In this document: piece after piece, positions 49,506 through 53,229 of the stretch
Layout of the letters: each line of letters opens with the position of its first letter
How positions within the stretch are numbered: the stretch's first letter is position 1
Assembly (NCBI RefSeq): GCF_001602375.1
Contig: NZ_BCNY01000014.1
Coordinates: 310,001 to 374,000, forward strand
From: Methanoculleus horonobensis
GTDB taxonomy: Archaea > Halobacteriota > Methanomicrobia > Methanomicrobiales > Methanoculleaceae
Length of the DNA stretch: 64,000 nucleotides
Reading direction: 5' to 3'
Translations under genes and position numbers: made by a program
Notes under the pieces: model-generated
Database searches by the model: none
What the model was told of the DNA's origin: nothing
What the model saw: only the letters and a program-made list of their open reading frames with translations

Positions 49506-49536
49506 TTATTTATAATGTCAACCCGTCTATGTTGAC
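49506..49536 (+). promoter_or_regulatory. TATA box and inverted repeat before the HTH/GWCP operon
   Basis: TTATTTATAA (49506-49515) is followed at once by the inverted repeat GTCAAC-N8-GTTGAC (49517-49536), which ends two bases before the ATG at 49539. The distance from TATA to ATG implies an almost leaderless mRNA, and the repeat covers the transcription start, an ideal repressor site. The regulator encoded by the first gene is the natural candidate. Confidence 0.65.
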
Positions 49537-49538
49537 GT

Positions 49539-49985
49539 ATGCCCCTATCCCTGGACGAGAGGCAGTTTGCGTTCTGGCAGCTCAGGCGGAGCGGTCTTGT
49601 AAACATCCAGATCGCGGACCGCTTCAAGATATCCCGCCAGGCGGTCTCGAAGGCGCTGCTTGCCATGAACAGGAAGGTCGAGGAGACGCTCATCGAGATG
49701 GCGCAGGCGAACCAGATCGAGGTCGAGCGCATGAACGCAGAGATTGGCGTCCTCTTCGGCCGCTCGGTTCCCTTCGACGCGGCGGCCATCGTCTTCGTCT
49801 CGGCAGACCACGGGGTGCAGGTCTGGTACGAGCACGAGGGCGACTGCGGCGCATGCCCCCGGTACGCCCGGTGCATCGAGCTCCTCTGGGGCTACGCGGA
49901 CGAACTGGGGATTGCGCTTGAGAAGACCGACGACCCGACCCGCCTGGCCGACGAACTCTTCACAAAACTCCGGGAGATGGTATGA
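49539..49985 (+). CDS. Helix-turn-helix regulator with C-terminal cysteine motif, first gene of the GWCP operon
   Basis: 148 residues. LDERQFAFWQLRRSGLVNIQIADRFKISRQAVSKALLAMNRKV is a sigma-region-4/RHH-unlike helix-turn-helix with the recognition helix ISRQAVSKAL. A middle helix (VEETLIEMAQANQIEVERMNAEIGVLFGRS) may dimerise. The C-terminus has EGDCGACPRYARCIELL, a C-x2-C-x5-C set that may bind metal or sense redox. I recall such regulators in other Methanomicrobiales beside membrane proteins, but no function. It overlaps the next gene by ATGA and has an operator-like repeat over its own start. Confidence 0.82.
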   Translation: MPLSLDERQFAFWQLRRSGLVNIQIADRFKISRQAVSKALLAMNRKVEETLIEMAQANQIEVERMNAEIGVLFGRSVPFDAAAIVFVSADHGVQVWYEHEGDCGACPRYARCIELLWGYADELGIALEKTDDPTRLADELFTKLREMV

Positions 49986-50587
49986 TGCCGCTCCTGGAGA
50001 CGATCCGGGCGTATCTTGGCTGGTGCCCCATGCAGGCGTCGATGCGGCCGGATCTCACGGTGCGGCCGGCGACGGCCGCGGCGGCGGGGGGGCAGGATGG
50101 CCCCCTCCGGGTCGAACCCGGGTGGTGGAAGCGCTACCATAACCAGTTGCTGATAACGGCGGTAGCCTTCTCGGCGGCGACAGCGGCGCTCTTTATTCTG
50201 TTCGAGGATGCTTCAGGGCACCTTGCCATGTGGACGGGTCTTGCCGTCGGGGTAGGAGCGCTCCTCGGCTCTCTGCTCAGTTACCGCTCCCGGTATGCGC
50301 GGGTTGCCGCCGGCGAGTTCCACAGGGACAACATGACCCGGAGACAGCGCATTGTCCAGTACCTGAGGGTGCCGGTGGCCTCCGTTCTCCTCGCCACCGG
50401 TATGGCGTATTTTGTTCTGGGCGGGATGTTCGACCGGATTCTCGGGATCGTGCTGGGCATGTGTCTCATCTGCTGGATCTGGTACGGCCTCACGATCCTC
50501 TGGGAGCGCCGGCACAAGGCGATCATGATCGCGGAGTGGGGGTCGGTGTATACCGTGGATACGGCAACAGAGGGTGAACGCGTATGA
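49982..50587 (+). CDS. GWCP-signature membrane protein 1 (DUF1673-like), 201 aa
   Basis: First of five tandem paralogues. The N-terminal signature is LLETIRAYLGWCPMQAS, followed by a variable linker and four hydrophobic helices (LLITAVAFSAATAALFILF, MWTGLAVGVGALLGSLLS, VPVASVLLATGMAYFVLGG and ILGIVLGMCLICWIWYGLTILW). The C-terminal tail HKAIMIAEWGSVYTVD is soluble. It is the most divergent member: it has GWCPMQ instead of GWCPNA and lacks the soluble middle domain. The start overlaps the regulator stop (ATGA). The DUF1673 label is from memory of the IRxxxGWCPNA signature. Confidence 0.78.
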   Translation: MMPLLETIRAYLGWCPMQASMRPDLTVRPATAAAAGGQDGPLRVEPGWWKRYHNQLLITAVAFSAATAALFILFEDASGHLAMWTGLAVGVGALLGSLLSYRSRYARVAAGEFHRDNMTRRQRIVQYLRVPVASVLLATGMAYFVLGGMFDRILGIVLGMCLICWIWYGLTILWERRHKAIMIAEWGSVYTVDTATEGERV

Positions 50588-51273
50588 TGAAGTTCTTCGA
50601 GACGATACGGAGATGGATGGGCTGGTGCCCGAACGCGGCAGCGGCCGGCACCGTCCGGCGCCGGTACGCCGCGCCGGAGGGCGAGGTCGGTATGGCGAGA
50701 GAAGGCAACCGGGATGTGGTGGAGGGTGCACTGGTGGACTACGGCCCGATCGGCACTCCGGGAAGGCTCTTCATTCTGCTTGTTGCCGCCGCTCTCCTCA
50801 TTGGATGCCTCTTCGTTATGGCACCTGCTGTGGGCCTTTTTGTGCTGGTCATCATACTGGCTTACTCCGGTATGGAGATCTATGGAGTCATGCGAAGAGC
50901 CCGTGTCGAGGTCACCCCGGACACGATTACCATCACGCGACTCTTTCGGCCCATCGTCATCCCGAAGGACGCCGTCGTGAAAGTGGAAGTGAAGGAGAAC
51001 AAACTCCCCATCCCTTACTGGCTCCTTGTGGGGGCACTGGCGATGATCTTCCTATCGGCGGCCGGCGGTATATACTATGGACTCTCAAATCCGACCTCCA
51101 TGCGGTTTATCTCCGGGCTTGGCGCTGCGATCTTCTTCCCCGTGATCTTCTACCGCACCTACGTGAGGACACATTACCCGCAAATCCTGACGATAACGAC
51201 GGAGAAGAAGATCGCCGCAATCTACACCGGTGACCCCGAACGGATGGCCCGAACGCTGGGGGTGGCCGGATGA
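50584..51273 (+). CDS. GWCP-signature membrane protein 2 (DUF1673-like), 229 aa
   Basis: The start IRRWMGWCPNAAAAGTVRRRYAAP is followed by GNRDVVEGALVDYG, two helices (LFILLVAAALLIGCLFVMA, VGLFVLVIILAYSGM), a soluble beta segment with VEVTPDTITITRLFRPIVIPKDAVVKVEV that looks like a bacterial PH-like domain, two more helices and the tail YTGDPERMARTLG. The DNA for its N-terminal signature is nearly identical to that of member 5. It overlaps member 1 by ATGA. Location is probably the cytoplasmic membrane; the function is unknown. Confidence 0.78.
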   Translation: MMKFFETIRRWMGWCPNAAAAGTVRRRYAAPEGEVGMAREGNRDVVEGALVDYGPIGTPGRLFILLVAAALLIGCLFVMAPAVGLFVLVIILAYSGMEIYGVMRRARVEVTPDTITITRLFRPIVIPKDAVVKVEVKENKLPIPYWLLVGALAMIFLSAAGGIYYGLSNPTSMRFISGLGAAIFFPVIFYRTYVRTHYPQILTITTEKKIAAIYTGDPERMARTLGVAG

Positions 51274-52007
51274 CGGTCTTTCTGGAGTATATCCGAAAGA
51301 AGCTCGGCTGGTGCCCGAACGCCGACGCCGTCAGGCCCGTCCGCCGGCGATATGCCGAGCCGGCCGGCGATATCGGGCTCGGGGCGGCGCCGGACGGCAA
51401 CCGGGAGGTGGTAGAGGGCGTGTTCGTGGACTACGTCAGTCCCCGCCTCTTACCGCTGATGCTCCTTGCCCTCGGCGGGTTCTTCGGGCTCCTCGTAGTA
51501 GGCTTCCTGATCCCCCAGTTGCGTTCCGGGTTCTATATCCTCCTCGCCCTCACCTTCACGACGTATGCCGCGGTGCGTCTCTATCTCGATACGAAACAGA
51601 CAGTAGTAGAGTCCTTCGGGGATGCCATCGTCGTCCGAAGACCACATTCCCGACCGCTCGTCTTCGGAAAGGATGCCATCAGGTCGGTCGAGGTGAAAGA
51701 GACAAACCTTCCCATTCCCCGCTGGGCGGTCGCGTTGCTCTTTCTTCTCCTGGTTGCGGGGATATTCTTCGGCCTCGCAGGGAGGGGGTTGACGCAGTTT
51801 TTAGGTGGCCAGGTCGTCGACCCCGATCTCTCGTTTCATCTTCTCTTTTCAGCCGGCTTTGTGGTGTATTTGCTAGCGAAGTTATATCACGCCCTTCTCA
51901 GTCTGGGGTATCCCGGTTACCTCAAGGTGAGGCTGGAGCCCGCCGGATTCCTCCACGTCTACACCGACGACCCCGAACGGGTAGCCCGGGTTCTGGGGGG
52001 TTCCTGA
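51270..52007 (+). CDS. GWCP-signature membrane protein 3 (DUF1673-like), 245 aa
   Basis: The start EYIRKKLGWCPNADAVRPVRRRYAEP is followed by GNREVVEGVFVDYVSPRL, two helices (LLPLMLLALGGFFGLLVVGFL, FYILLALTFTTYAAVRLYL), the PH-like segment VVESFGDAIVVRRPHSRPLVFGKDAIRSVEVKE, two helices and the tail LEPAGFLHVYTDDPERVARVLG. This is the most complete form and the best family reference in the array. Its first 75 bases are almost identical to those of member 4. It overlaps member 2 by ATGA and member 4 by one base (TGATG). Confidence 0.8.
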   Translation: MTVFLEYIRKKLGWCPNADAVRPVRRRYAEPAGDIGLGAAPDGNREVVEGVFVDYVSPRLLPLMLLALGGFFGLLVVGFLIPQLRSGFYILLALTFTTYAAVRLYLDTKQTVVESFGDAIVVRRPHSRPLVFGKDAIRSVEVKETNLPIPRWAVALLFLLLVAGIFFGLAGRGLTQFLGGQVVDPDLSFHLLFSAGFVVYLLAKLYHALLSLGYPGYLKVRLEPAGFLHVYTDDPERVARVLGGS

Positions 52008-52486
52008 TGACGGTCTTTATGGAGTATCTCAGGAAGAAACTCGGCTGGTGCCCGAACGCCGACGCCGTCAGGCCCGTCCGGCGCACGAGCGCGGAAGCGG
52101 GCTACGGGGATGCGTGGCAGGGAAAGAAGCCGGAGCCAGACCCCGGCCCGGAGCCCGCCGGCACCGCAGGCGGCGATCGGAGCGGCTACCAGGACAACAT
52201 GCTGCTGATCCTCATTGCCCTGGCCTGGCTCCTCCCGGTCGTGTACGACCGTGAGTTCCTCCCGATCCTCATCCTCCTCTCCGCCGTCGCCGTATATTAT
52301 GACGCGCAGAGCATCCGTGCCGGGGAAAAATTCGAGAAGGAGACGCTGTTTGGCGATATCGTCACCTGGCAGCCGCTGACCTGGGGAGCAGCGACGCTTG
52401 TCGGCGGGATCATCATCATGGCGATCTACCTCTTCCACCGGAAAGAGATCTACCGCGCAAACTTCGCCGGGGAGGCATCCGCATGA
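52007..52486 (+). CDS. GWCP-signature membrane protein 4, shortened, 159 aa
   Basis: The start EYLRKKLGWCPNADAVRPVRRT matches member 3 nearly base for base, but the protein then has a Pro/Glu/Gly linker (KKPEPDPGPEPAGTAGG) and only about four short helices (NMLLILIALAWLLPVV, FLPILILLSAVAVYY, LTWGAATLVGGIIIMAIYLF). The PH-like middle segment and the DPERVA tail are missing. It is either a shortened specialised member or the result of recombination of a duplicated 5' end with another membrane gene. It overlaps its neighbours by TGATG and ATGA, so it is translated in series. Confidence 0.75.
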   Translation: MTVFMEYLRKKLGWCPNADAVRPVRRTSAEAGYGDAWQGKKPEPDPGPEPAGTAGGDRSGYQDNMLLILIALAWLLPVVYDREFLPILILLSAVAVYYDAQSIRAGEKFEKETLFGDIVTWQPLTWGAATLVGGIIIMAIYLFHRKEIYRANFAGEASA

Positions 52487-53229
52487 CGCTGAAACTCGCT
52501 GAAGCGATACGCCGGTGGATGGGCTGGTGCCCGAACGCGGCAGCGGCCGGCACCGGTCGGCGGCGGTACGCCGCGCCGGTCGGCGAGGTCGGGTTCGGGA
52601 CGGCGGCGGCCGGCAACCGGGAGGTGGTGGAGGACGTGTTCGTGGAGTACACCAGTCCTCGCTTCTTTGTGCTGATGCCGTTTGCCGTCCTCACCTTCCT
52701 CCTCCTCTTCGTGATATCCGTCCTGATCCCCTCCCTGTGGCCAGGGCTCACCTTTACCTTCCTGGCCGTTTCCCTTCTGGCGTGGGCCGCATGGCGCATC
52801 TACTTCGATCCCTACCGAACCATGATAGAATTCTCCGGGAACTCCGTCATCGTCCGGAGACCACGTTCCCGGCCCCTCGCCTTTGGAATGGATACGGTAA
52901 GGTCGGTCGAGGTGAAACGACCCTACCTCTCCATACCCCGCTGGTTGTCCGCACTGCTCCTGGTACTCATGACTGCAGCGATATTCTTTGCCGGCGTAGG
53001 GAACTGGTTGATGCGCTATCCTGGCGACTCGGTCGCTGATCCCTATCTTGGCTTTCAGGTTCTTCTGGCGGTCGGCTGGATGGCATTCATGCTGGAGTGG
53101 CTCTATCGCGCCCTGGTCAGTCTGCGGTATCCCGGCCGCGTCTGGGTGAGGCTGGAGCCCGCCGGGTTCCTCCAGATCTATGCGGACGACCCGGAGAGGG
53201 TTGCAGCGCTGCTCGGTTCCCCACGATGA
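52483..53229 (+). CDS. GWCP-signature membrane protein 5 (DUF1673-like), 248 aa
   Basis: The start EAIRRWMGWCPNAAAAGTGRRRYAAP resembles member 2, while the body resembles member 3: GNREVVEDVFVEYTSPRF, two helices (VLMPFAVLTFLLLFVISVLI, TFTFLAVSLLAWAAW), PH-like segment MIEFSGNSVIVRRPRSRPLAFGMDTVRSVEVKR, two helices and the tail LEPAGFLQIYADDPERVAALLG. This mosaic suggests gene conversion among the paralogues. It is the last gene; CCCC/GGGG around 53221-53241 could form a weak end-of-operon hairpin. Confidence 0.8.
   Translation: MTLKLAEAIRRWMGWCPNAAAAGTGRRRYAAPVGEVGFGTAAAGNREVVEDVFVEYTSPRFFVLMPFAVLTFLLLFVISVLIPSLWPGLTFTFLAVSLLAWAAWRIYFDPYRTMIEFSGNSVIVRRPRSRPLAFGMDTVRSVEVKRPYLSIPRWLSALLLVLMTAAIFFAGVGNWLMRYPGDSVADPYLGFQVLLAVGWMAFMLEWLYRALVSLRYPGRVWVRLEPAGFLQIYADDPERVAALLGSPR

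Follow-up and report, generated by a model that had tools for sequence, protein, structure and literature searches.

Covariation of an N-terminal peptide tag on unrelated membrane proteins with regulator type suggests an autoregulated envelope module in methanogenic archaea

An operon encoding one helix-turn-helix (HTH) regulator and five membrane proteins (M1 to M5) was analyzed in a stretch of 64,000 nucleotides from Methanoculleus horonobensis (assembly GCF_001602375.1, contig NZ_BCNY01000014.1), which is referred to as the window. Comparison with related genomes showed that a short N-terminal sequence, the tag, is found on membrane proteins whose remaining parts (bodies) are often unrelated, and that it covaries with the type of the regulator encoded in front of them. 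On balance, the operon probably represents a self-contained autoregulated envelope module, in which the C-terminal domain of the regulator would recognize a docking peptide that various envelope proteins present in the cytosol. Whether this amounts to a transferable peptide code appears evenly balanced. In such a code, an autoregulator would read the matching tag (GWCP for type A regulators, GLC-RK for type B) on unrelated membrane proteins, any tagged envelope protein would report to the same promoter, and a metal or Fe-S site would lie beside the reading surface. The features of the locus are given in window coordinates.

49506..49516, + strand: TATA-box region, AT-rich (TTATTTATAAT), identified from the sequence
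49517..49536, + strand: candidate operator GTCAAC-CCGTCTAT-GTTGAC, 2 nucleotides (nt) 5' of the start codon
49539..49985, + strand: type A regulator, HTH domain (helix ISRQAVSK) and C-terminal domain with H99-x3-C103-x2-C106-x5-C112
49982..50587, + strand: M1, DUF1673 protein, about four transmembrane (TM) helices, tag IRAYLGWCPM (Pfam 47.0 bits, cut-off 30.4)
50584..51273, + strand: M2, DUF1673/PH-like protein, about four TM helices, tag IRRWMGWCPN (Pfam DUF1673 39.3 bits; bPH_6 20.0 bits)
51270..52007, + strand: M3, four TM helices and a split PH-like beta domain, tag IRKKLGWCPN (Pfam 30.9 bits; AlphaFold2 and Foldseek)
52007..52486, + strand: M4, small membrane protein of another body family, tag LRKKLGWCPN (body grouping; 5' DNA in common with M3)
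52483..53229, + strand: M5, body family of M2 and M3, tag IRRWMGWCPN (Pfam 36.7 bits; alignment)

An order-level sample of 232 related genomes was used for the comparison, and a class-level search returned that sample again. The regulator was detected in 97 of these genomes and DUF1673 in 75; comparison of the two lists gave 74 genomes with both, the sole DUF1673 genome without a detected regulator being a fragmented assembly (G072). From 121 non-identical operons, a common layout was obtained in which one regulator gene precedes as many as 12 tagged membrane genes, the tagged genes overlapping mostly by 4 nt within the order of the window. The regulators fall into types A and B, each of which is one side of a single branch. 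First genes encode W in the tag in all 95 type A operons, while those of the type B operons encode L in 15 cases (G-L-C) and F in one (G-F-C). Examples of tag peptides are IRRWMGWCPNAAA with W and HWFGLCRKAP for type B. The association is strong (Fisher 8.5e-19, kinship uncorrected), but as the two types differ by a single clade, the raw counts overstate independence. A stronger test was provided by homologous bodies that occur in both operon types. Within one family (n=50), four changes of operon type were counted, three of them on supported branches, and each was accompanied by a change of tag. In two further families, type B members carry A-like tags with W replaced by L, one of them also with C-P replaced by C-R. 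The leucine codons of these tags are TTG, TTG and TTA, one or two steps from TGG, and TTR makes up 7.5% of leucine codons in these genes; two of the three proteins are homologous to each other. Loci L277 to L279 constitute a third regulator lineage beside types A and B, which has retained the helix, operator and W of type A and has a loop with E108, an acidic residue at tag position -4 and KK or RK after the cysteine, like type B.

The bodies outside the tag, 344 in number, form 23 groups (BLAST, 1e-5), some of which may be distantly related to each other; a few singletons are probably mis-called open reading frames. Body types include DUF1673, PH-like, SdpI/YfhL (SdpI/DUF1648), Yip1 and AglB-core-like proteins, and among the tagged bodies of relatives, profile matches reached 6.6e-18 for SdpI (PF13630) and 5e-15 for Yip1. 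Different body groups are combined in 77 of 85 multi-gene operons. The PF07895 (DUF1673) model also catches an unrelated Yip1 body via the tag region (residues 5-39). A tagged body of about 420 amino acids (aa) was observed in ANME-2 and Methanoperedens records (L187, L200, L215 and similar), and the C-terminal part of the L187 protein has a weak match to the AglB core domain (E 1.7e-4). Since the tag occurs on nearly every membrane protein, is conserved where bodies vary and is present several times per operon, it might instead make no contact with the regulator and serve as an assembly or targeting signal for a third partner or as a driver of hetero-oligomers, its link to operon type reflecting co-inheritance. 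This is considered unlikely, as proteins changing operon type turned W to L, apparently in place, in genomes with both types, which a general targeting partner would not require, and as the charge of the tag tracks the regulator loop in the third lineage.

The preliminary description of this DNA had listed six overlapping genes, their junctions (ATGA, ATGA, ATGA, TGATG and ATGA) and the position of the inverted repeat, all of which agree with the sequence. Upstream of the operon, a TATA box is followed by the GTCAAC-N8-GTTGAC repeat, which is perfect, and the start codon is almost leaderless; the repeat is flanked by TTTATAA (49509-49515) on its 5' side and by the ATG (49539) on its 3' side. 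The description further stated that all membrane proteins start with IRxxxGWCP, which applies to M1, M2, M3 and M5 but not to M4 (LRKKLGWCP). It assigned a DPERVA tail to three of them, which is found in M3 and M5 only, M2 reading DPERMA. Its PH-like middle part received weak support: M2 scores below the bPH_6 cut-off of 22 bits, and the best Foldseek matches of the M3 beta domain are PH/FERM-like but all weak (E >0.1). The AlphaFold2 model of M3 consists of an N-terminal helix (residues 2-11), GWCP, a disordered segment (16-43), four membrane helices and the split beta domain; in 53 M3-type proteins the only invariant tag residues are W14, C15 and P16. DUF1673 membership, also suggested there, holds for M1, M2, M3 and M5, which reach the PF07895 cut-off, while M4 remains below it (21.0 bits, match confined to the tag region, residues 3-30). 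No SdpI match was obtained in Pfam for any of M1 to M5. The idea of one system, which according to the description would fail if homologues never stood next to the HTH gene, is clearly upheld: regulator and DUF1673 are conserved together, and the system has its own operator. The term five paralogues had to be given up, as only the tag is in common and the bodies of M1 and M4 lie outside the M2/M3/M5 family; together with the mixture of many body types in relatives, this led to the rejection of a simple paralogue complex.

The 2.45 Mb genome contains a single copy of the regulator gene and one occurrence of the exact 20-bp repeat, and all of its DUF1673 matches fall within this locus. A search for GWCP codons, made with the degenerate pattern GGNTGGTGYCC only, identified these five as the only credible genes genome-wide with the pattern soon after the start codon, the other occurrences representing short or spurious frames. 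In the relatives, the operator was found 2-3 nt 5' of the regulator start, with 10-12 of 12 bases, in 118 of 121 operons; the remaining three comprise two near misses and one truncated locus. Its distance to the start codon is usually 2 nt and rarely 3 in type A operons, and a TATA-like stretch lies immediately upstream in 115 of the 118 scored operons. Type B, the sister regulator, has the operator GTAAAT-N8-ATTTAC at the same position. Within the genus of the window, the operator occurs once per genome, twice where two regulator copies exist, and not at all where the regulator was not found. A global regulator was rejected for this genus, the exact operator being present as one copy per regulator gene.

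Methanoregula-like genomes (g34) and a few others carry extra operator sites. The extra type A sites of the Methanoregula-like genomes were mapped 5' of a stand-alone GWCP gene, of another GWCP gene and of a Yip1 protein (PF04893, E 1.8e-27) that is followed by an exported CARDB-like protein, an arrangement recurring in several of these genomes (L298, L299, L301, L303 and similar). The GWCP-tagged genes L297 and L300 (G195:C2 233691) encode proteins of 340-363 aa and each have their own operator; L300 is distant from any regulator gene found, which is a sign of a scattered regulon. Type B operators precede leaderless-looking starts of exported proteins by 2 nt at L305, L306 and L308, and two of these proteins resemble the MEMAR S-layer glycoprotein model NF041431 (E 5e-160 and 6e-84), although they score under the cut-off of that model. 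Operator matches that stand in isolation, for example G111:662108, seem to be due to chance. The extra sites of relatives are placed in front of tagged genes and of genes for Yip1 and S-layer-type proteins, which points to a probable role in envelope homeostasis. The envelope theme of the preliminary description thus gains support from the S-layer-type, SdpI and Yip1 proteins of the wider operons and regulon.

In the confident AlphaFold2 model of the regulator (pLDDT 88.9), the HTH helices are followed by four strands and by a loop on which H99, C103 and C106 lie; C112 is part of the next helix, and one more helix comes last. The C-x2-C-x5-C cluster reported earlier is present (C103, C106, C112) and is preceded by H99. 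The H-x3-C-x2-C-x5-C ligands are found in 120 of 121 regulators, L090 lacking the histidine. This motif has exactly the ligand spacing of the N5 [4Fe-4S] cluster of NuoG, whose motif HxxxCxxCxxxxxC is reportedly given in the title of a paper by Nakamaru-Ogiso et al. from 2008. The corresponding model PF10588 was the commonest Pfam match among 60 regulators, although weak (22 of 60, E up to 0.1, best 5.5e-4). The conserved ligands with NuoG N5 spacing and the PF10588 matches make a metal or Fe-S site in the C-terminal domain likely; the difference from NuoG is that only a short stretch is involved here, inside a transcription regulator with a putative cluster. Searching by sequence for relatives of the cysteine region with solved structures gave no useful result. 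The regulator can be placed as an HTH protein distantly similar to Tfx; over its full length, the closest solved fold, if weakly so, is that of the Tfx family member EnfR. Both have an HTH followed by a beta-containing C-terminal part, and in a comparison with the 'eighth note' fold of EnfR, Foldseek aligned them near full length with a probability of 0.89-0.93, weak E-values (0.04-0.07) and a TM-score of about 0.33; the score for TIGR00721 (Tfx) was 19.5 bits (E 0.00069), compared with the NCBIfam cut-off of 60.25. The site bound by the EnfR dimer is a pseudo-palindrome (PMC10570040). The His-Cys3 motif sets the regulator apart, the word cysteine being absent from the EnfR paper.

Among the alignment columns that separate type A from type B regulators, 32, 35 and 38 belong to the recognition helix, others lie at 50-66, and 84, 107, 108, 115, 116 and 141 fall in the C-terminal domain. 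Those in the recognition helix match the change in operator, and those around the ligands match the change in tag. The regulator could in principle be a metal or Fe-S sensor acting alone, as repressor or activator, with the membrane proteins as effectors that give no feedback; one-component sensors are the common arrangement and the protein has its own motif. This possibility does not appear likely, as the covariation of tag and regulator would be left unexplained and, for an activator, the operator covers the expected transcription start.

According to the favored docking mechanism, the regulator would bind the 20-bp palindrome flanked by the TATA box and the beginning of the almost leaderless transcript, probably as a dimer in view of the palindromic site. 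Because the operator covers the expected transcription start, binding would most likely block initiation and result in autorepression. Each membrane protein would expose in the cytosol an N-terminal helix ending in G-W-C-P on a flexible linker, and this peptide would most likely dock on the C-terminal domain of the regulator. Docking is the simplest use of a tag that is common, apparently cytosolic and has to match the regulator. How much of the membrane proteins is present, or in which state, would then set the free regulator available for the promoter, by titration or release, as for SdpI with SdpR. The signal is probably envelope or membrane stress, or else a membrane-active peptide, and the metal or Fe-S site may gate it. 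A response of this kind is favored because the SdpI/YfhL, Yip1/YknW and PH-type bodies recall sigmaW genes; this last step is the least certain. The invariant tag cysteine had been proposed as a docking, lipid or metal site. A lipoprotein cysteine was rejected, and a lipid site is unlikely, as the tag stands before the first membrane helix and no signal peptide precedes it; docking fits best, possibly near the metal site. The cysteine might even be a ligand in trans, so that docking and the metal or Fe-S cluster form one switch. Its presence in every scored tag, in part a product of how the search pattern was constructed, and the difference between types in the loop beside the ligands would suit this variant, which nonetheless seems quite doubtful given four conserved ligands in cis, with the histidine missing from only one of 121 regulators (L090).

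We infer DNA binding, repression, docking, metal identity, topology and stimulus from sequence, and several observations weigh against the docking mechanism. The truly independent tag switches are few, about 5-6, and the covariation of loop charge has two origins on the best tree, of which one is forced by supported branches. The tag is presumed cytosolic because it is placed before the first TM helix and surrounded by basic residues, so that the topology is read from position and charge. No tagged gene was detected downstream of the type A regulators L193, L194, L205, L207 and L219 and the type B regulators L088 and L103; contig ends or imperfect gene calls are perhaps the cause. The regulator of the window itself gave no PF10588 match at E 0.1, and the same four ligands could hold zinc.

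In their DNA, M3 and M4 are 100% identical over 30 nt from the GWCP codons (51306 and 52043) and 83% over the preceding 30 nt, and M2 and M5 are 100% identical over 30 nt from theirs (50620 and 52522). As the M3 and M4 bodies differ in spite of this near-identity, the tag has evidently passed between genes by recent 5' cassette copying. That it is nothing else than a passive cassette, spread by recombination at translation-coupled junctions and without protein function, is improbable, since W, C and P are nearly invariant across orders while the helix residues vary, A-like tags in type B operons show altered leucine codons (TTG, TTA) and no copied type B cassette, and tagged genes with their own operator (L297, L300) exist apart from the promoter of the regulator.

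Beyond the order of the window, the system was also found in records of Methanosarcina, Methanolobus, Methanoperedens and ANME-2, and it was detected in 73 of 394 genomes of a phylum-wide sample. No regulator match was found in phage or plasmid collections, and a mobile element or virus was rejected on this basis. One regulator frame of the same phylum (L294, G406:C1:206336-206779) contains an in-frame TAG; either read-through with pyrrolysine or a broken gene copy could account for it.

Membrane proteins of the DUF1673 type form a large expansion in archaea and have no known function. The analysis supplies a regulator and an operator for them, a candidate explanation for the one motif that they strictly conserve, and direct ways of testing it. 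Should the tag dock on the regulator, many unrelated membrane proteins would be wired to one archaeal promoter in a new way. Envelope-stress signaling in archaea is poorly known, and the module covers methanogens as well as anaerobic methane oxidizers.

A full-text search for DUF1673 in the open literature returned only two papers, in which DUF1673 (arCOG06827) is described by its 'MGWCP motif' and its expansion in Methanosarcina (PMC4158269, PMC4390880). Their passages on this family, to which M1, M2, M3 and M5 belong, mention neither a function nor a regulator, an operator or any logic of the tag. The motif and the expansion were therefore known before, whereas the regulator link, the operator, the second system and the tag covariation were not found in the open literature searched. 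YdbST are bPH proteins. The sigmaW-dependent peptide-resistance genes yfhLM, yknWXYZ and ydbST of Bacillus subtilis, with their listed roles (PMC8144471), offer an analogy, as SdpI/YfhL, Yip1/YknW and bPH body types recur in tagged or operator-linked proteins. It is an analogy of body types only, with another regulator and in another domain of life. SdpR is of the ArsR type, and the regulator described here gave no match to ArsR, its HTH being weakly like LuxR or Tfx types. In the SdpR/SdpI system of B. subtilis, an autorepressor is captured at the membrane by an immunity protein (PMC1626106). Both systems comprise a small operon with an autoregulator, a multi-pass membrane protein and a palindrome at the promoter of the regulator, and SdpI-family bodies are tagged in relatives. 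They differ in the regulator family, in the absence of an SdpI body from the window, and in that membrane capture is known for SdpR, whereas here it is proposed, with docking through a transferable N-terminal tag on unrelated bodies.

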